From positions 1-36,478 of the forward strand of contig DATCRI010000074.1 of the NCBI GenBank assembly GCA_036569045.1: 36,478 bases of DNA, written 5' to 3'. Shown piece after piece: positions 4,050 through 34,885 of the stretch. Within the stretch, counting starts at the first letter, position 1, and each line of letters begins with the position of its first letter. The stretch comes from Chthoniobacterales bacterium. Its GTDB lineage: Bacteria > Verrucomicrobiota > Verrucomicrobiia > Chthoniobacterales > JAATET01. A model generated the notes under the pieces. That model ran no database searches and was not told the DNA's origin. It saw only the letters and a program-made list of their open reading frames with translations. Made by a program: the position numbers and the translations under genes.

Positions 4050-5317
4050 GATATTTCAAGGCCACCCTGCTTATCGGCACGATCGCGGTGCTCGCGGTGC
4101 TCGTGCTCGACGCCACCGGCTGGATTCACCCGCTCGAACTCCTCGCCTCCCAGCTCCTCACGCGATTCTCCCCCACCGGCACGCTGGTGCCCACCTCGCA
4201 CGCGTTCGTGCTCATCGTGTCGGCCATCATCGGCTTTGCCTGCGCCTGGACCACGGTGGACATCTCCCGGCCAGCGGGAAAGACGGCCGTGGCATTCAGC
4301 GGCATCTTTTTGCTGCTGAGCAGCGCCGTCGTCGTCGCGCTCTACGGCGTCTTTTTCTCGCCGTTCCAGGCCGTGATCGCCGCTTTCTTCAGTTACGTGA
4401 TCGGCATGTTCTACGGCCGCAGCGACTCGGGCGCCCGCAAGCGCGTCCTGCAGCGGCTTTTCGGCAACCGCATCTCGAAGCCGCAATTCGCCCGGCTGGT
4501 GGATTCCAACCATCCGCTCAGCTTCCCGGGCACCGAGCAGAGTGCGACCGTCGTCGTCTGCGAGGTCCACAATCACGTCGAGCTCCTCGAAAGCCTCAGC
4601 CCCGAGGACTACGTGGCCATGACGAATCTTTACCTGAAGACCGCGTCGAACTACCTCGTCGACGCCGGCGGTTATCTCGACGAATGCGGCGGCGAAAGCC
4701 TGCGCGTGGTCTTCGGGGCGCCGATCACTCGCGCCGATCACGCCGTCGCCGCGTGCCGGGCCGCGCTCGAGCTGGCCGCCCGCGTCGACACGCTCAACAA
4801 GGAATGCGACGCCCGCTGGCATCAGCGCCTCGACTTCCGCGTGGGCATCAACTCCGGCGCGATGATCGCCGCGGCCTATGGCGGGGAGCGCCTCGGCTCG
4901 TTCAGCGTGGCCGGGCCGGCCGTGGAATTTGCCCGTCGCCTCTGCGCCGCCGGGGCGAACTACGGCTGCCGCATTCTCGTCGGCCCGGAAACTTACGCCG
5001 AGGCCCACGACTTCGTCGAAGGCCGCCCGATCGAACTGCTCCGCCGTGCCGATGGCCGTCGCATCGAGCTCTACGAGGTCCTCGCCCCGGTGAATGCGCT
5101 TTCGCCCGAGCGCGCCCGCAGCCGCGAGCACTTCTGGAAGGGCGTCATCTACTACCGCGATCGTCGCTGGGACCTCGCGATGGAGGAATTCTCCAAGGCC
5201 CGCATCACCGGCATTCCCGATCCCGGCCTCGACGCCTACGTGATGCGCACCGAGCGCGCGCGCCGCGGCGATACTTCCGCGCCGCTTACGCCCGCCGTCC
5301 TCGCGGAAATCAGCTGA
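4046..5317 (+). CDS. Membrane protein with divergent adenylate/guanylate cyclase domain
   Basis: This 423-residue protein has about four N-terminal membrane helices (roughly 5-23, 52-71, 82-100, 106-124) and a cytoplasmic class III nucleotide cyclase domain (about 165-345). The fold is recognisable from VVFGAP (221-226), the following [15 protein letters not shown] helix, [10 protein letters not shown] and a VEFARRL segment. The two positions that normally hold metal-binding Asp are Glu: VCEV (Glu173) and CGGES (Glu217). The usual Asn of the VNLAARL segment is Glu. It may therefore be weakly active or inactive as a cyclase. Its ATG overlaps the stop of the ClpX-like gene (4046-4049), so translation is probably coupled. 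A TPR-like C-terminal tail (about 350-400) follows the domain. The fold assignment is secure; cyclase activity is not. Confidence 0.82.
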
Positions 5318-5331
5318 GCCGCGTCCTGTCC

Positions 5332-5949
5332 TTGAAGCCGGTCGATTATCCCGAGCCGTTCCAGCAGCTCGCGCGGCAACTCCGCCGGCTGCCCTCGATC
5401 GGCCCGCGCAGCGCAGAGCGCATCGCCCTCTGGCTGACAGCCTCGCCGGATGCCCACAGCGAGGCGTTGATCGATGCCCTCTCCGTCGCCGCCCGTGAGG
5501 TGCGTCCCTGCGAACGCTGCGGCTTTTTCGCAACGGATCCCGAATGCGTGATCTGCATGGATCCCGAACGCGGCGGCCGCGAAATCTGCGTCGTGGAAAC
5601 CGCGACCGACGTGCTGCCGGTGGAGCGGACGGGATTTTTTACGGGCCGTTACCACGCGCTCGGCGGCCGCCTTGCGCCCCTGGAAAATGTCGGCCCCGAG
5701 GACCTGCGGATCGACGCCCTCGTGGCCCGGATCGCCGACGAGCAACCGACGGAAATCATCCTCGCACTCGCCTCCGACGTGGAAGGCGAAGCCACCGCCA
5801 ATTACCTCGCCGAGGTGCTCGCGAGCGCGGCTCCCGGCATCCGGGTGAGCCGGCTGGCGCAGGGGCTGCCGGCGGGTGGGGGACTCGAGCACGCCGACCA
5901 GCTCACCCTCCAGCGCGCGCTCGTCGGTCGCATCGGAATGCGGCGCTGA
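5332..5949 (+). CDS. recR: Recombination mediator protein RecR
   Basis: RecR works with RecO and RecF to load RecA at single-strand gaps during recombinational repair. The 205-residue product has the N-terminal helix-hairpin-helix region (LRRLPSIGPRSAERIA), a zinc finger with Cys60, 63, 72 and 75, and the Toprim domain starting at EICVVETATDVLPVE and ending in the conserved RLAQGLPAGGGLEHAD. No ATG lies at a suitable place. TTG 5332 gives a protein of normal RecR length and starts 14 bases after the preceding stop; CTG 5326 is an alternative. It sits between the cyclase-like gene and lipA in a co-directional run. Confidence 0.96.
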   Translation: MKPVDYPEPFQQLARQLRRLPSIGPRSAERIALWLTASPDAHSEALIDALSVAAREVRPCERCGFFATDPECVICMDPERGGREICVVETATDVLPVERTGFFTGRYHALGGRLAPLENVGPEDLRIDALVARIADEQPTEIILALASDVEGEATANYLAEVLASAAPGIRVSRLAQGLPAGGGLEHADQLTLQRALVGRIGMRR

Positions 5950-5989
5950 TTGCGTTTCGACCCATTTTACGCCACCTTCTCCGCCAGCG

Positions 5990-6883
5990 ATGTCCTGCTC
6001 GAAGATCGATCCCACTCTGCACCAAGCCAAGAAGCCCGAATGGATCAAGGTGCGCCTGCCCTCGAATCCCGTTTTCTTCTCCACGAAGGGCCTTATTTCC
6101 GACCTGAAGCTTCACACGGTCTGCGAGAGCGCCCAGTGCCCGAATCGCTGGGAATGCTGGAGCCAGGGCACGGCCACTTTCATGATCGCCGGCGAACGCT
6201 GCACGCGCGCCTGCGGTTTCTGCGCCGTGGACACGGCGAAGCCCTTCGCCCTCGAGGCCGATGAGCCCCAGCGCGTCGCCGAGGCCATCCGCCGCCTCAG
6301 GCTCAAGCACGTCGTCATCACCGCCGTTGCCCGCGACGACCTCGCCGACGGCGGCGCGGACCACTTCGCGCAGACGATCGAGGCCGTGCGTGGCGTCGAT
6401 CCGGAAATCATCATCGAGGTGCTCACACCCGACTTCAATGGCAAGGAAGGCCCGCTCCAGACGGTGCTCGACGCAAAGCCGCACGTCTTCAATCACAACC
6501 TCGAGACCGTCGAGCGCCTCACTCCGCTCGTCCGTTCCCGCGCGAAATACCGGCTCTCGCTCGACTTCCTCAAGCGCGCGAAGGAGCTCGATCCGAACGT
6601 CGTCACCAAGAGCGGCCTGATGCTCGGTCTTGGCGAAACCGAGACCGAGATCTTCGAGGCCATGGACGACCTTCGCGAGGCGAACGTCCAGGTGCTCACG
6701 ATGGGCCAATACCTGCGTCCGACTCCGAATCATCTGCCCGTCGTCGAATACATCCGCCCCGAGACGTTCGATCTCTACCGCGAGATCGCGACGAACAAGG
6801 GCTTCGAATACGTGGCCAGCGGCCCGCTCGTTCGCAGCTCCTACCACGCGGCGGATTACAATCCGGTCAAGCGCCCGGCCTGA
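5990..6883 (+). CDS. lipA: Lipoyl synthase
   Basis: LipA is a radical SAM enzyme that inserts two sulfur atoms into the octanoyl group on lipoyl domains of pyruvate and 2-oxoglutarate dehydrogenases and the glycine cleavage H protein. The 297-residue product has both iron-sulfur sites: the auxiliary cluster cysteines Cys45, 50 and 56 (CX4CX5C) and the radical SAM triad CTRACGFC (Cys71, 75, 78). The C-terminal RSSYHA supplies the conserved serine. Length is normal. ATG 5990 is supported by the family-typical KKPEWIKVRLP soon after it. It follows recR by 40 bases and no lipB is in the window. Confidence 0.97.
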   Translation: MSCSKIDPTLHQAKKPEWIKVRLPSNPVFFSTKGLISDLKLHTVCESAQCPNRWECWSQGTATFMIAGERCTRACGFCAVDTAKPFALEADEPQRVAEAIRRLRLKHVVITAVARDDLADGGADHFAQTIEAVRGVDPEIIIEVLTPDFNGKEGPLQTVLDAKPHVFNHNLETVERLTPLVRSRAKYRLSLDFLKRAKELDPNVVTKSGLMLGLGETETEIFEAMDDLREANVQVLTMGQYLRPTPNHLPVVEYIRPETFDLYREIATNKGFEYVASGPLVRSSYHAADYNPVKRPA

Positions 6884-6896
6884 TTTCGCTTCCGCC

Positions 6897-6910
6897 TGTA
6901 ACAACGGGCG
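6897..6910 (+). promoter_or_regulatory. Possible sigma-factor -35 motif GTAACAACGGGC upstream of the sigma gene
   Basis: The core GTAACAAC(G/C)GGC occurs here and again at 7666-7677, upstream of the kinase gene. The GTAAC lies 40 bases before the sigma-factor ATG and is followed by an A/T-richer CTTATG around 6918-6923. AAC-containing -35 elements are typical of ECF sigma factors, so autoregulation is possible. The -10 assignment is weak. Confidence 0.4.
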
Positions 6911-6937
6911 ACAAATGCTTATGGGGAAGGGGACGCC

Positions 6938-7669
6938 ATGCCGCCTTCCTCCGCCAATGCCCGGCCGCTCTTCGTCACGACGCGCTGGTCGATCGTCCTT
7001 GCGGCACGCGCGGGGAACTCCGACGGCGCGGCGCTCGAGACCCTGTGCCGGACGTATTGGTATCCGCTCTACGCCTTCGTGCGCAGTCGCGGACATGCGC
7101 CAGCCGATGCGCAGGACCTCACCCAGGAATTCTTTGCCAGGCTGCTGACGCGCAATTACCTCGATGCCGTCTCGCCGGATCGCGGCCGCTTCCGCACATT
7201 CCTCCGGATGGCGCTGCAGCGCTTCCTCGCAAACGAATGGGATCGCGCGCGGACCCGGAAACGGGGCGGCGAATGCGTGCACGTGCCCTTCGACACCGTG
7301 ATCGCCGAACGCCGCCTGAGCGATGAGCGCGACCACACCCTGCCGCCGGATCGCACGTTTGACCGGCGCTGGGCGCAGGCGCTGCTGGACGATGCCGCGA
7401 TGCGCCTGGAGACCGAATACCGCGCCGCCGGCAAGGCCGCGGAATTTTCCGCACTGAAGCCGCATCTCACGGCCGGGCGAGGCGAAATTCCCTACGCCGA
7501 GATTGCGAAGGCCCTCCAGACTACGGAGGGTGCGGCGCGGGTCGCGATTCATCGGCTGCGCCGGCGATTTCGGGAGCGCTTCCGCGAAGCGGTGGCCGAC
7601 ACGGTCGTGACGCCGGAGGAATTCGAGATGGAAATGCGCGAAGTGCTCGACGTGCTGGGAAACCGGTAA
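6938..7669 (+). CDS. ECF-like RNA polymerase sigma factor (Planctomycetes/Verrucomicrobia type)
   Basis: This 243-residue protein resembles the long sigma-70-family factors common in Verrucomicrobiota and Planctomycetes. Region 2 is seen in LCRTYWYPLYAFVRSRGH followed by ADAQDLTQEFFARLL (about 30-70), including the core-binding and -10 recognition helices. Region 4 is the helix-turn-helix IPYAEIAKALQTTEGAARVA followed by an Arg-rich recognition helix (about 187-220). The linker between them (about 100-185) is longer than in classical ECF factors. An AAGGGG sequence lies a few bases before the ATG. The kinase gene starts 30 bases downstream, so the pair is probably co-regulated. No anti-sigma factor is adjacent; the membrane kinase is the likely regulator by analogy with kinase-linked ECF groups. 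Confidence 0.9.
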   Translation: MPPSSANARPLFVTTRWSIVLAARAGNSDGAALETLCRTYWYPLYAFVRSRGHAPADAQDLTQEFFARLLTRNYLDAVSPDRGRFRTFLRMALQRFLANEWDRARTRKRGGECVHVPFDTVIAERRLSDERDHTLPPDRTFDRRWAQALLDDAAMRLETEYRAAGKAAEFSALKPHLTAGRGEIPYAEIAKALQTTEGAARVAIHRLRRRFRERFREAVADTVVTPEEFEMEMREVLDVLGNR

Positions 7670-7680
7670 CAACCGGCCGG
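7665..7680 (+). promoter_or_regulatory. Second copy of the GTAACAAC motif, upstream of the kinase gene
   Basis: GTAACAACCGGC matches the motif at 6898-6909 at 11 of 12 bases. It overlaps the stop codon of the sigma gene and lies 34 bases before the kinase ATG. A GATTAC at 7688-7693 might be the -10, but its spacing differs from that of the upstream copy. Confidence 0.38.
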
Positions 7681-7699
7681 AGAAACTGATTACGCAGGC

Positions 7700-9880
7700 A
7701 TGAGCGAATCCTCTTTTTGTCCTCAATGCGGCGCGGCGCTGTCGACCGGCGGAATCTGCGCGACCTGCGCCGCGAACTTTCTGCAAGGCGAGCCCACGGT
7801 CGCTCCGGGCGAGCCGTTCGTGCCACCGAGCGTCGAGGAACTCGCCGCCAGATTTCCTCGTCTCGAGATCCTGGAGCTCATTGGTCGCGGTGGCATGGGG
7901 GCGGTTTACCGGGCACGGCAGCGGGAGCTCGACCGCATCGTCGCCCTGAAAATCCTGCCGCCCGGCATCGGCGACGATCCGGCCTTCGCCGAGCGCTTCG
8001 CCCGCGAGGCCCGGGCGCTCGCCAGGCTCAACCATCCGAACATCGTCACGCTCTTCGAATACGGACGCGCCGAGGACGGATCGTATTTCTTCCTGATGGA
8101 GTTCGTCGATGGCTTGAACCTTCGGCAACTGTTGGCCGCGGAGCGCGTCTCGCCACGGGAGGCTCTCGCCATCGTGCCGCAGATCTGCGACGCGCTGCAG
8201 TTCGCGCACGACCACGGCATCGTCCATCGCGACATCAAGCCGGAAAACATCCTGCTCGATCGCGGGGGGCGCGTGAAGGTCGCGGACTTCGGGCTCGCGA
8301 AGCTGATCGGCTCCGTCGCCGAAGATCCGGGCGAGAGGATGACGACGAGCGGGGAACTGACCGGCGCCGGCAGGGTTCTCGGCACGCCGAGCTACATGGC
8401 CCCGGAGCAGACCGCGCAGCCAGACGCCGTGGACCATCGCGCGGATATCTACGCGCTCGGGGTCGTATTCTACCAGATGCTCACCGGCGAGCTGCCCGAG
8501 CGACAGATCGAGCCGCCGTCGCGCAAGGTCCGCATCGACGTGCGCCTCGACGAGGTGGTGTTACGAGCCCTCGAAAAAAATCCCGACCGCCGCTACTCGC
8601 AGGCGAGCGTGCTGAAGACGCAAGTGGAAGAAATTCGGGGGACGGCAGAGCTCGAGGACCATCCCCACACCGGGGGAGAGCCTCCCAAGCGCGGGATGCC
8701 GCTCGTGCTCGGCGCGTCCGTTCTACTCCTGCTGGGTCTTGTGGCCATGTTCCTCATGCGCAGTGGGCAGCCTTCCGAGAAAGCCCAGGAGCCACCGGTC
8801 GAAAACGTAATGAACCCCATCGCGGAGCCGGTCACGAGCCCCATTGAGGACCGCGCCACCTTGCAAAGACGCCTGTTAGATCTCGCGATTTCCACCGCGG
8901 AGCTGCGAGGACAATACCGGGAGGGACATCCGAAAGTGGTCGCCGCGGACACGAATCTCACGGCCTTTGAGAGGACGCACCCTGGCCTTCACGGTGAGGA
9001 CTTCAACGCCCTGATCGAGACAACCCGCACAAATCTTCTCATCGAGGACAATCGACTCAGCTCGCGGTATCGGGCTTCCCATCCCCTGCGAGCCGCGGTT
9101 CGCAGGAAGCTCGACGCGCTCGCAGGACTGCTCGCCCTGGAGCAGAGTGACGTTTCCCCGGAAAGATCCGCTGCGGCAGACTGGTTGAAACTCATGGACG
9201 CCGCCGATTACGCGAAAGCGTGGCAGGAGGCGGCCCCGAGTTTTCGCGCCAGCATTTCGAAAAAGGATTGGATCGAGAAAGCGACCCAGGTTCGCTCTCC
9301 CCTTGGCCGGATCTCCGATCGGAAAATGACCTCGTTCGAGCGAACGACGAACATGCCGGGAATGCCCGACGGCGCCTATTTCATCGCGAAGTTTCAGACC
9401 ACATTCGCCGAATTGCCCGGAGCTACGGAGACCGTGAAATTCGCGCTCGATCCGCCCGAGGGATGGAAGACCATCGCCTACTTCATTCTTCCGCCTGAAG
9501 GAGGCGATTTCCCGGCATCTCCGCCGAAAACCGCGGATGAACGCGCGGCCGTCGCCGCGGCGGAGGCCTGGCTTGCCGGCATCGACGCCGGAGAATATGC
9601 GGAGAGCTGGCCAGTCGCGTCCGCGGCGTTCCGGGCCACGATTACGCAGGCCAGCTGGACCGCCGCTCTCGTGGCCGCCCGCGCTCCGCTCGGCGCGCTG
9701 AAGAGCCGCACCGTGAAAACTGCCCGATCGCTCGAACGTCTGCCGGGGACGGCTGCCGGCCAGTTTGTCGTGATGCAATTCGCGACGAGCTTCGCAAACA
9801 AGCGGAACAGCGTCGAAACGGTCACGTTTGCGAAGGCTGAAAATGGCGTCTGGGAAGCCTCGGGCTATTTTATCAAATGA
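7700..9880 (+). CDS. Transmembrane Ser/Thr kinase with two extracytoplasmic DUF4019 domains
   Basis: This is a 726-residue kinase. A short zinc ribbon comes first (CPQC 7-10, CATC 20-23). The kinase domain covers about 55-313: GRGGMG (62-67), VALK Lys84, HRDIKPEN (176-183), DFG (196-198), APEQ (234-237). All catalytic residues are present. A membrane helix lies at about 333-353. The region outside the membrane has a helical segment (about 385-480) and then two copies of a DUF4019-like domain (about 492-600 and 612-726). Both copies have an AW/DWL..D..Y...W start, an SPLG or APLG centre and a YFI end. The gene follows the sigma factor and its stop overlaps the next start (ATGA at 9877). A role as sensor controlling the sigma factor is inferred; the ligand is unknown. 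Confidence 0.92.
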   Translation: MSESSFCPQCGAALSTGGICATCAANFLQGEPTVAPGEPFVPPSVEELAARFPRLEILELIGRGGMGAVYRARQRELDRIVALKILPPGIGDDPAFAERFAREARALARLNHPNIVTLFEYGRAEDGSYFFLMEFVDGLNLRQLLAAERVSPREALAIVPQICDALQFAHDHGIVHRDIKPENILLDRGGRVKVADFGLAKLIGSVAEDPGERMTTSGELTGAGRVLGTPSYMAPEQTAQPDAVDHRADIYALGVVFYQMLTGELPERQIEPPSRKVRIDVRLDEVVLRALEKNPDRRYSQASVLKTQVEEIRGTAELEDHPHTGGEPPKRGMPLVLGASVLLLLGLVAMFLMRSGQPSEKAQEPPVENVMNPIAEPVTSPIEDRATLQRRLLDLAISTAELRGQYREGHPKVVAADTNLTAFERTHPGLHGEDFNALIETTRTNLLIEDNRLSSRYRASHPLRAAVRRKLDALAGLLALEQSDVSPERSAAADWLKLMDAADYAKAWQEAAPSFRASISKKDWIEKATQVRSPLGRISDRKMTSFERTTNMPGMPDGAYFIAKFQTTFAELPGATETVKFALDPPEGWKTIAYFILPPEGGDFPASPPKTADERAAVAAAEAWLAGIDAGEYAESWPVASAAFRATITQASWTAALVAARAPLGALKSRTVKTARSLERLPGTAAGQFVVMQFATSFANKRNSVETVTFAKAENGVWEASGYFIK

Positions 9881-10389
9881 GCGCGTCATCCGGCTTTCAT
9901 CGGGCGCCCTGGAGCCGCCCCCTGGTTGTCAGCTCTGTCCTCGCAACGGTCGTCTGCGTCGGGATCGGGGCAGGGCTTCCAATGTGGGTCGAAAATCCCG
10001 GCGTCTGGTGGGCGACCCCGCTGCTGCTCGCGCTCCCGCCGCTCTGCGCACTGTTCCTCGTGCGCGGTTATCGGATCACGCCGGATGCCATTCTCGTCCT
10101 GCGGCCAGGCTGGACGACGCGCCTGCCGCGAGCAGGGCTGCTCTTCGCGGAAGCTGCGCCGGACGCGATGCGGGGAAGCATCCGCCTCTGCGGTAACGGT
10201 GGATTCTTCGCCTTCACGGGACTTTTCTGGAACCGGACGCTCGGTCGTCATCGCGCGTTTGTCACCGATCCTGCGCGGACCGTGGTCCTGCGTTATGCGC
10301 CGCGCACGGTGGTCATATCACCGGCGGACCCCGCCGTTTTCGTCAGCGAATTGCGGCAATCTTCTCGCAAGGAAGAAGTCGGATTTTAG
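9877..10389 (+). CDS. Small membrane protein with PH-like domain
   Basis: The 170-residue product has two membrane helices (about 17-36 and 44-62) followed by a soluble part starting YRITPDAILVLRPGW, which resembles the bacterial PH-like domains found after paired helices in small membrane proteins. The tail ends with ISPADPAVFVSELRQ, also typical of that family. It overlaps the kinase stop by four bases, so it is probably translationally coupled and part of the sigma/kinase unit. The function is unknown; the PH assignment rests on pattern recognition only. A GC hairpin (10389-10410) without a T-run follows the stop. Confidence 0.68.
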   Translation: MSASSGFHRAPWSRPLVVSSVLATVVCVGIGAGLPMWVENPGVWWATPLLLALPPLCALFLVRGYRITPDAILVLRPGWTTRLPRAGLLFAEAAPDAMRGSIRLCGNGGFFAFTGLFWNRTLGRHRAFVTDPARTVVLRYAPRTVVISPADPAVFVSELRQSSRKEEVGF

Positions 10390-10514
10390 GCGGCGAGGAA
10401 GGTTGCCGCCGGGGTCCCGGAGTGTTACGTTCCCGCCCCGGTGGAACAAAAGCTGCTCCAAGGGGACGCGGACGTTTTACTTGCTCTTAACCATACGAAA
10501 CTCAGCCAAACAGG

Positions 10515-15203
<4,689 letters not shown>

Positions 15204-33898: not shown

Positions 33899-34885
33899 TC
33901 ACGGCGAGGGAGGCGCGGGCACGCCAGTGCTCACCATGATCAGAGCCTTCGATCCATTCGCGCCGGCCGCGACATATCGTCCCGCGCCGCCGACGACCGC
34001 GCGCAGATGGTCGGCGTTCCGAGAAACCCAGAGCTGCCTCGTCCAGGTCGGACCGCTCGGCGTGCTGAAAACGCCCTTGTCCGAGAACGCGAGAAAGAGA
34101 TTCCCGGCCCACGCAACGCCGAGCAGGTCGGTGGAACCGAAGGGATGCGCCCGCCACGTTTTGCCGCCATTCGCCGAGGTGAGGCAAAGCCCGTTCTCGC
34201 CGACACAAACCACCCGCCGGCCGGGCCGCTGCGCCGCGATGCCCCGCGCCGGCCCCCGCGCGGTCGTCTGAAACTCGGTTTCCCACTCGGCGCCGTCCTT
34301 CGAGCTTTGGATCGTAGCCCCGGCAAGCGAACTGCACAGGAGGTAATTTCGGCGGGCGGTAAGGCCAGTCACCGAGCTGGCCAGCCCTCTGGAACGATCG
34401 CCATCGAGCGGGTATTGCCAGCGATTCCCGTGAGCGGACGCCGCAAAGGCACGCGAATTCGACCCGAGGGCCACGAAGCGATCGTCAATGGCGGCGACTT
34501 CGGTCAGATTGTAGCTGCCTTGGAAGCGTTTGCGGTTCGCGACGCGGTCGGCGTAGCTCCAGGAGAATCCGTTGCCGGAATAAAGGACCGTCACGCCGAT
34601 CCGACTCGTTCCGCTCACGAGGGCGACGAAGCGATGTTGCCCGAAGGTTACGGCGTTGATTTGTCTCGTGGCAGGCCGGGCCACAGTCCAATTCTCTGCG
34701 TCGAACGAGGTGAGCAGATAGCCGGTCGACGTCCCGGCGACGAATCGCCCGTCGCCGTAAGCGAGGGCGGAAATCTTGCCGACTCCGGAGAGCACCTGAC
34801 GGCTCCACACCCACTCGGCCTTCGCTCCGAGAGGCAGGACGAGCAAGATGAGGGAAAGAAGGGCAACAATCGGGCGGCGACACAT
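33899..34885 (-). CDS. Secreted beta-propeller protein with Asp-box-like repeats
   Basis: The 328-residue product starts with a signal peptide (about 1-23, ending LPLGAKA). Six repeats of a pattern like S-x-D/N-G-x-x-W occur at about 60-66, 103-109, 150-156, 195-201, 237-244 and 275-281 (for example SKDGAEW, SANGGKTW). Between them lie strands such as DRFVALGS and GRYVAAGA. This fits a six-bladed propeller of the BNR/sialidase-like type. The active-site residues of sialidases are not evident, so a binding role is more likely. The frame is open upstream; the signal peptide sets the start at 34885. It lies between dapF and trpA but looks functionally unrelated to them. Confidence 0.8.
   Translation of the reverse strand: MCRRPIVALLSLILLVLPLGAKAEWVWSRQVLSGVGKISALAYGDGRFVAGTSTGYLLTSFDAENWTVARPATRQINAVTFGQHRFVALVSGTSRIGVTVLYSGNGFSWSYADRVANRKRFQGSYNLTEVAAIDDRFVALGSNSRAFAASAHGNRWQYPLDGDRSRGLASSVTGLTARRNYLLCSSLAGATIQSSKDGAEWETEFQTTARGPARGIAAQRPGRRVVCVGENGLCLTSANGGKTWRAHPFGSTDLLGVAWAGNLFLAFSDKGVFSTPSGPTWTRQLWVSRNADHLRAVVGGAGRYVAAGANGSKALIMVSTGVPAPPSP

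Follow-up and report, generated by a model that had tools for sequence, protein, structure and literature searches.

Two promoter-like sites at a sigma factor and kinase locus of a Chthoniobacterales bacterium, very probably read by the sigma factor encoded between them

In the 36,478-nucleotide stretch of Chthoniobacterales DNA analyzed here (the window; contig DATCRI010000074.1), a gene for an ECF-type sigma factor is followed, after a gap of 30 bp, by a gene for a membrane Ser/Thr kinase, and a copy of the same 12-base motif stands before each of the two genes. This arrangement raises the question of which protein reads the motif and which genes are controlled through it. An earlier note on this DNA took the motif for a -35 element with the AAC that is usual for ECF factors, and proposed that the sigma factor may control its own gene and, separately, the kinase gene, and possibly other genes as well.

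The locus and its two bipartite elements

The features of the locus are collected in Table 1. The sigma factor matches the sigma70-ECF profile TIGR02937 with 52.9 bits (cut-off 42.9) and Pfam Sigma70_r2 with 25 bits (cut-off 24), and it lies below the cut-off for Sigma70_r4_2 (20.7 vs 25.7) and, just, for Sigma70_ECF (20.6 vs 21.1). With only the sigma2 and sigma4 domains and a match to the ECF profile, it falls among the ECF (group 4) factors. No match was returned by phmmer from PDB sequences, and a profile search led weakly to ECF sigmas, which are its nearest PDB folds, none with E < 0.001. Its predicted structure (mean pLDDT 80.6) has helices at residues 85-106 and 197-220. The score against Sig-70_gvs1 (TIGR02989), the Rhodopirellula/Verrucomicrobium family, is 25.6 bits, far below the curated cut-off of 124.55.

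The kinase consists of an N-terminal Cys-rich segment, a kinase domain (Pkinase, 1.4e-48), one hydrophobic segment and two DUF4019 stretches (1.7e-59), the Cys motif and the hydrophobic segment having been identified by eye from the sequence. The bPH_5 gene is probably co-transcribed with the kinase gene. Gene order in the closest relative (L012) is identical to that in the window. We also observed that, following its kinase domain, the L012 kinase (4769-7117, 782 aa) has a hydrophobic stretch rich in Gly, which the window kinase lacks. In G009, a genome of the same genus, the site is empty: glutamate synthase comes directly after lipoyl synthase (C119 near 58780-59688, L219; vs window 6884-10510), with the sigma gene, the kinase gene, the bPH gene and both motifs missing as one unit, and a search of G009 for the sigma factor at 1e-15 gave no match.

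Table 1. Features of the sigma factor and kinase locus, in window coordinates
Feature	Position	Strand	Remarks
Lipoyl synthase	5876-6883	+	
-35 element TGTAAC, sigma-gene promoter (putative)	6897-6902	+	
-10 element CTTATG, sigma-gene promoter (putative)	6918-6923	+	conserved block, 15 nt after TGTAAC
ECF-type sigma factor, 243 aa	6938-7669	+	profile matches
Codons 95-103, taken as sigma region 2.3/2.4	7220-7246	+	with R95, N99, D102
Codons 197-208, DNA-recognition helix of sigma region 4.2	7526-7561	+	R201 7538-7540, V202 7541-7543
-35 element GGTAAC, kinase promoter (putative)	7665-7670	+	contains sigma stop codon TAA 7667-7669
-10 element CTGATT, kinase promoter (putative)	7686-7691	+	kinase ATG 8 nt further on
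Membrane Ser/Thr kinase, 726 aa	7700-9880	+	Pkinase, DUF4019
bPH_5 protein with hydrophobic segments	9877-10389	+	bPH_5 6.8e-09; overlaps kinase stop
Glutamate synthase	10515-15203	+	

The two motif copies are real. GTAACAACGGGC at 6898-6909 and GTAACAACCGGC at 7666-7677, both on the + strand, agree in 11 of 12 letters, and their first bases lie 40 nt before the ATG at 6938 and 34 nt before the ATG at 7700, exactly as the earlier note had it. In the 3.43 Mb genome (G000) these are the only exact copies of the 12-mer; allowing one mismatch adds six more places, for a total of 8 vs 27 with the motif read backward as a control. Within the window the count at up to two mismatches is ordinary, with 6 matches vs 2.94 expected and 9 of 100 shuffles reaching 6. 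The motif stands out by occurring as an exact pair, by where the two copies lie and by being conserved.

The 12-mer is moreover half of a larger element. A T or a G precedes GTAAC, and a second conserved block lies 15 nt downstream of KGTAAC, both sites reading KGTAAC-N15-CTKATK, a bipartite element of the -35/-10 type with fixed spacing. The upstream regions of relatives show the second block at a constant distance from the motif as well. We searched 11 genomes for the pattern GTAACRA-N13-CTKATK. G000 (control 0) and G020 (control 1) each have exactly two matches, all of them at the locus. G009 and G029, which belong to the same genus, have none, and one further match was found, in G002; control matches numbered five overall.

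Conservation of the sites among relatives

For the comparison across relatives we took the best 80 of 279 relatives, 29 new loci (L092-L120) from a search across the order that gave matches in 104 of 197 genomes, and the window, which after removal of 4 duplicates gave 106 loci. A two-block matrix was fitted to 97 kinase upstream regions and was not trained on sigma regions. It describes TGTAAC(A/C)(A/T)-N11-TTCTTAAG-like blocks, the spacer between the 8-mers being 11 in 82 of 86 training sites. The matrix reaches at least 12 bits in 80 of the 97 kinase upstream regions (shuffles 0.6%), with 15 of them below 8 bits, and in 38 of the 106 sigma upstream regions (shuffles 0.5%). As a control, the upstream regions of 347 other ORFs from these loci were scored, and 10 reach 12 bits. 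The enrichment before sigma/kinase pairs of relatives that the earlier note had proposed to look for is thus seen before both genes. A further 60 loci yielded a site in 22 only, and in many of the others the kinase gene adjoins or overlaps the sigma gene, or no kinase was found.

Six control ORFs score above 18 bits: four additional sigma or kinase genes of the same type and two other genes next to the locus. A second kinase gene with its own site of the same type stands upstream of the pair in three loci (L025 809-2827, L049 619-3546 and L059 985-2946), and a second sigma gene with a site is found in L028 (2897-3640). The remaining high-scoring sites, in L027 (about 4680-4750) and L091 (about 5165-5234), precede neighbours of the sigma gene that encode products of 708 and 492 aa with no Pfam match, which suggests further local targets in some relatives.

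In the window itself the sigma-gene site is the best site, at 23.9 bits, or 23.7 bits when the window, L012 and L024 are left out of training. The kinase site scores 12.5 bits with the same three left out, and it has CTGATT as its -10 where the close relative has CTTATT. Once these near relatives are omitted it is outscored by an unrelated place on the - strand at 34626-34652 (CGTAACCTTCGGGCAACATCGCTTCGT, 13.5 bits), which carries the letters CGTAACC of the Lys type described below. The 8 nt between the kinase -10 and ATG are the modal distance (16 of 82 loci), start codons of the kinases having been chosen automatically and some being probably wrong (distances of 58-62 nt). In 16 of the 82 scored loci, one of them the window, the -35 and the sigma stop codon overlap in the same register, the stop being TAA in 15 and TGA in L119.

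The two sites are not kept alike. Self-promoters of at least 12 bits were found for 38 of the 53 sigma factors with Arg at residue 201 vs 0 of the 53 with Lys at this residue, and kinase promoters are present with both types (Arg201 44/49, Lys201 36/48). This suggests that in the kinase-linked family the kinase gene is retained as a target more widely than the sigma gene. As a separate observation, a possible other promoter, CTTGC...TTA, stands before the sigma gene in some Lys-type loci (e.g. L048, L057, L058, L061); the rough pattern occurs in 9 of 106 loci, among them 5 of the 48 with a kinase site only and 0 of the 34 with both sites (shuffles 0.24%).

Covariation of promoter letters with the sigma factor

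The sigma and kinase sites within a locus are more alike than sites taken from different loci. We compared the sites within loci over 18 hand-grouped clades comprising 34 loci. The -10 blocks of a locus agree in 5.42 of 8 letters vs 4.21 expected, a value reached in none of 10000 permutations, and the -35 blocks in 7.22 vs 6.92 expected (p 0.0008). Examples are TGCCACA at both sites of L038 and TGAA in both -10 blocks of L015-L020 and L022.

Mutual information between promoter letters and all columns of the sigma alignment was calculated on 82 and then on 102 loci. With 102 loci, three -35 letters have their strongest partner in the region 4.2 recognition helix (R201 for position 7, z 9.0; V202 for position 3, z 5.3; G198 for position 4, z 4.4), and two -10 letters have theirs in region 2.3/2.4 (N99 for position 4, z 7.0; R95 for position 6, z 5.9). 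N99 and R95 are each top for one -10 letter in both runs; D102 is top for two -10 letters with 82 loci and weaker with 102. V202 accompanies GTA in 64 of 64. The top column lies outside the DNA-binding helices for -35 positions 1 and 8 and for -10 positions 1, 2, 3, 5, 7 and 8 (102 loci), including an unexplained z of 9.0 between V78 and -10 position 7; -35 position 2 is a tie between R49 and R206, and no usable score was obtained for -35 positions 5 and 6.

The clearest rule concerns the base after GTAAC, which is a purine with Arg201 and a pyrimidine with Lys201 in 102 of the 104 loci with a site, over about 11 switches; at the two exceptions, L039 and L159, the sites are doubtful. By Fitch counting, residue 201 changes 11 times, the base 10 times and the two jointly 12 times, and in 9000 simulations of neutral two-state traits on the same tree the agreement never exceeded 87 of 104. 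In the 22 sites from the 60 further loci, which were found with this base left unscored, K goes with C in 11 and T in 2, and R with A in 5, G in 3 and C in 1.

Because the promoter letters covary with the DNA-contacting residues across relatives, the cognate sigma factor very probably reads the motif. A motif common to two neighbouring genes cannot by itself name its reader, and it might serve as an operator for a different DNA-binding protein, or as a promoter for a different sigma factor of the cell, that happens to control both genes. We consider this highly improbable given the roughly 11 switches in which the letters follow the neighbouring sigma factor, and given the joint absence of motif and sigma gene from G009. 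The covariation with the cognate sigma factor is the decisive evidence for the reader of the motif.

One could also imagine that only the copy before the sigma gene is a promoter, the kinase copy being a chance resemblance at a stop codon and the kinase being expressed by read-through. The short gap between the genes, the weaker kinase site of the window (12.5 vs 23.7 bits) and some distant relatives in which the genes abut or overlap and no site was found would all fit, but the kinase site is conserved in more relatives than the sigma-gene site (80/97 vs 38/106) and shows both the fixed spacing and the within-locus covariation, which makes this explanation highly improbable. Read-through may nevertheless occur in addition to a kinase promoter. 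Coincidence, which a short motif in a GC-rich genome and a window count within chance at two mismatches might suggest, is next to negligible in view of the conservation and covariation across relatives.

Taken together, the matrix matches and the covariation with sigma residues argue for an ECF-type -35 element with AAC, and the two copies are, with high probability, the -35 elements of separate promoters that are read by the sigma factor encoded between them and that drive its own gene and the kinase and bPH_5 genes. The part of the earlier proposal that places the sigma gene and the kinase gene under separate copies very probably holds, resting on conservation, within-locus likeness and covariation; the part that extends control to other genes is not supported, as described below.

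From the computed features, namely the motif, its spacing, its conservation and covariation and the lack of an excess elsewhere, we infer a scheme of transcription, start points, leaderless translation and kinase action. The active sigma factor would start its own gene from 6897-6923, a case of positive autoregulation, and the kinase-bPH operon from 7665-7691, a promoter that would be embedded in the 3' end of the sigma gene with the TAA of its -35 as the stop codon. The resulting loop would run from sigma to sigma and from sigma to kinase. Since the kinase ATG follows the -10 at the distance that is modal in relatives, the kinase mRNA would probably be leaderless or almost so. The kinase in turn may act on the sigma factor by phosphorylation, as the gene pairing and the ECF43 systems discussed below suggest.

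Sites elsewhere and comparison with known systems

Patterns at three levels of strictness show no excess in G000, and the suggestion that the sigma factor possibly controls other genes is not supported. Relaxing the strict pattern to GTAAC-N15-CTKAT adds three places in G000, all inside open frames without a gene start just downstream, and none in G020. The looser KGTAAC-N15-YKKAW matches 5 times in G000 and 7 times in G020, with two matches in each at the locus, vs 13 and 17 in the controls. All six off-locus sites found in G000 over these patterns lie in open frames. A GGTAACC-N14-CGTAA site at G000:C54:13871-13896 (L141) is followed 13 nt later by a 495-aa frame that opens with ATG and begins like a signal peptide; the site carries C, the letter expected for Lys and not for Arg, and is one weak off-locus candidate.

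Phylum-wide, in 387 genomes almost all of other orders, the strict TGTAAC-N13-TTCTTAAK gave 4 matches vs 7 in the backward control. In 30 genomes that carry the sigma factor, TGTAACMW-N13-BKTAAK gave 8 matches vs 8 in the control, with 5 at sigma/kinase loci. The off-locus matches, in sets of 17 and 8, all lie within open frames of at least 100 codons; 5 sites of the first set and 2 of the second have an ATG-started frame of at least 80 aa that begins no more than 60 nt away. The most gene-like of these frames are that of L141 in G000 (495 aa) and that of L135 in G552 (500 aa, prepilin-like start). Degenerate sites may exist elsewhere in the genome.

A stricter reading would be a closed direct regulon, in which starts occur genome-wide only at the sigma gene and the kinase-bPH operon, the kinase is the output, about 11 Arg/Lys switches are matched by purine/pyrimidine switches, and self-promotion is confined to the Arg form. 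The weak candidate at G000:C54:13871-13896 lowers its odds, and we put it forward tentatively, as possible and somewhat doubtful.

Autoregulation by ECF sigma factors is textbook knowledge, and GTAAC-type -35 elements and kinase-linked ECF factors are likewise already known; what is apparently new is the promoter of the kinase-linked family and its Arg/Lys code. We found no assigned promoter for the kinase-linked sigma factors of Verrucomicrobiota and neighbours in the searchable literature; parts of the present assignment, including the Arg/Lys position, may be covered by the 2021 ECF classification and by Todor et al. 2020 on the rewiring of ECF specificity. With the present analysis the kinase-linked family gains a promoter assignment and predicted targets, and the approximately 11 natural Arg/Lys switches of -35 specificity provide material on how ECF factors read DNA and on the origin of orthogonal pairs.

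We take residue 170 of B. subtilis SigW to be lysine, in keeping with the SigW sequence. In the study of SigW with its -35 DNA this residue is printed once as R and once as K (PMC6713349). As K170 it stands at the homologous place, and the SigW -35, GAAACCT, combines Lys with C as do the Lys-type relatives (TGTAACCT). SigW differs from the window sigma factor in that the second -35 base is A, not T, and in that its partner is the anti-sigma factor RsiW and not a kinase (PMC6713349). In sigmaE of E. coli, R171 goes together with T at -30, contrary to the Arg-purine rule (PMC6713349), which is therefore a rule of the kinase-linked family and not of all ECF factors.

The sigmaD of C. glutamicum has the -35 consensus GTAAC (GTAACA at the rsdA promoter) and a recognition helix of A-V-R-V-A, compared with A-A-R-V-A in the window sigma factor (PMC11588781). 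In simulations of sigmaD, V171 meets T-34 and R170 meets the template G-31, with residue 170 also touching base -30 for at least part of the time (PMC11588781); in our own alignment V171 and R170 correspond to V202 and R201. It differs in being actinobacterial and in having a GAT -10 with a spacer of N17-18 or N18-20, and the accessible text describes no adjacent kinase promoter (PMC11588781). RpoE7 of S. meliloti, whose own promoter is listed with TGTAACAA, resembles the window in its -35 and in autoregulation combined with control of a neighbour, its own gene and SMb20530 both having TGTAACA(A/T) (PMC6180224). Unlike the window it has a CGAAT-like -10 at a longer distance and the anti-sigma factor EcfR7, not a kinase, as partner (PMC6180224). 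Acinetobacter SigAb is alike in its autoregulation and very small direct regulon, and differs in its anti-sigma partner and in having relA and an sRNA among its targets (PMC12153292).

The pairing with a kinase has parallels in ECF43, in which the ECF gene lies beside a Ser/Thr kinase gene (EcfP/PknT of Vibrio parahaemolyticus; EcfK/PknS of Xanthomonas citri, with PknS transmembrane) (PMC8999054, PMC13147305), as it does in the window. ECF43 factors lack the acidic DAED and are thought to gain charge through Thr phosphorylation (PMC8999054, PMC13147305). The window sigma factor instead keeps DAQD (57-60, within DAQDLTQ at 57-63), with D60 invariant and D57 conserved in at least 90% of 32 aligned sequences, so that the ECF43 mechanism with its phospho-accepting Thr is not directly transferable. 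ECF59, ECF61, ECF62 and ECF217, tabulated with planctomycete examples, also lie beside Ser/Thr kinases, and the kinase-linked groups other than ECF43 keep a DAED-like motif (PMC8999054). T15, T62 and T222 of the sigma factor are invariant in the 32 aligned sequences, an invariance that alone assigns no phosphorylation site.

We also noted that the sigma factor continues beyond region 4 in a conserved C-terminal extension (window 7601-7666), in which T222 and E232 are invariant and the model places a helix at 226-241. A role of this extension in kinase docking or autoinhibition is possible.
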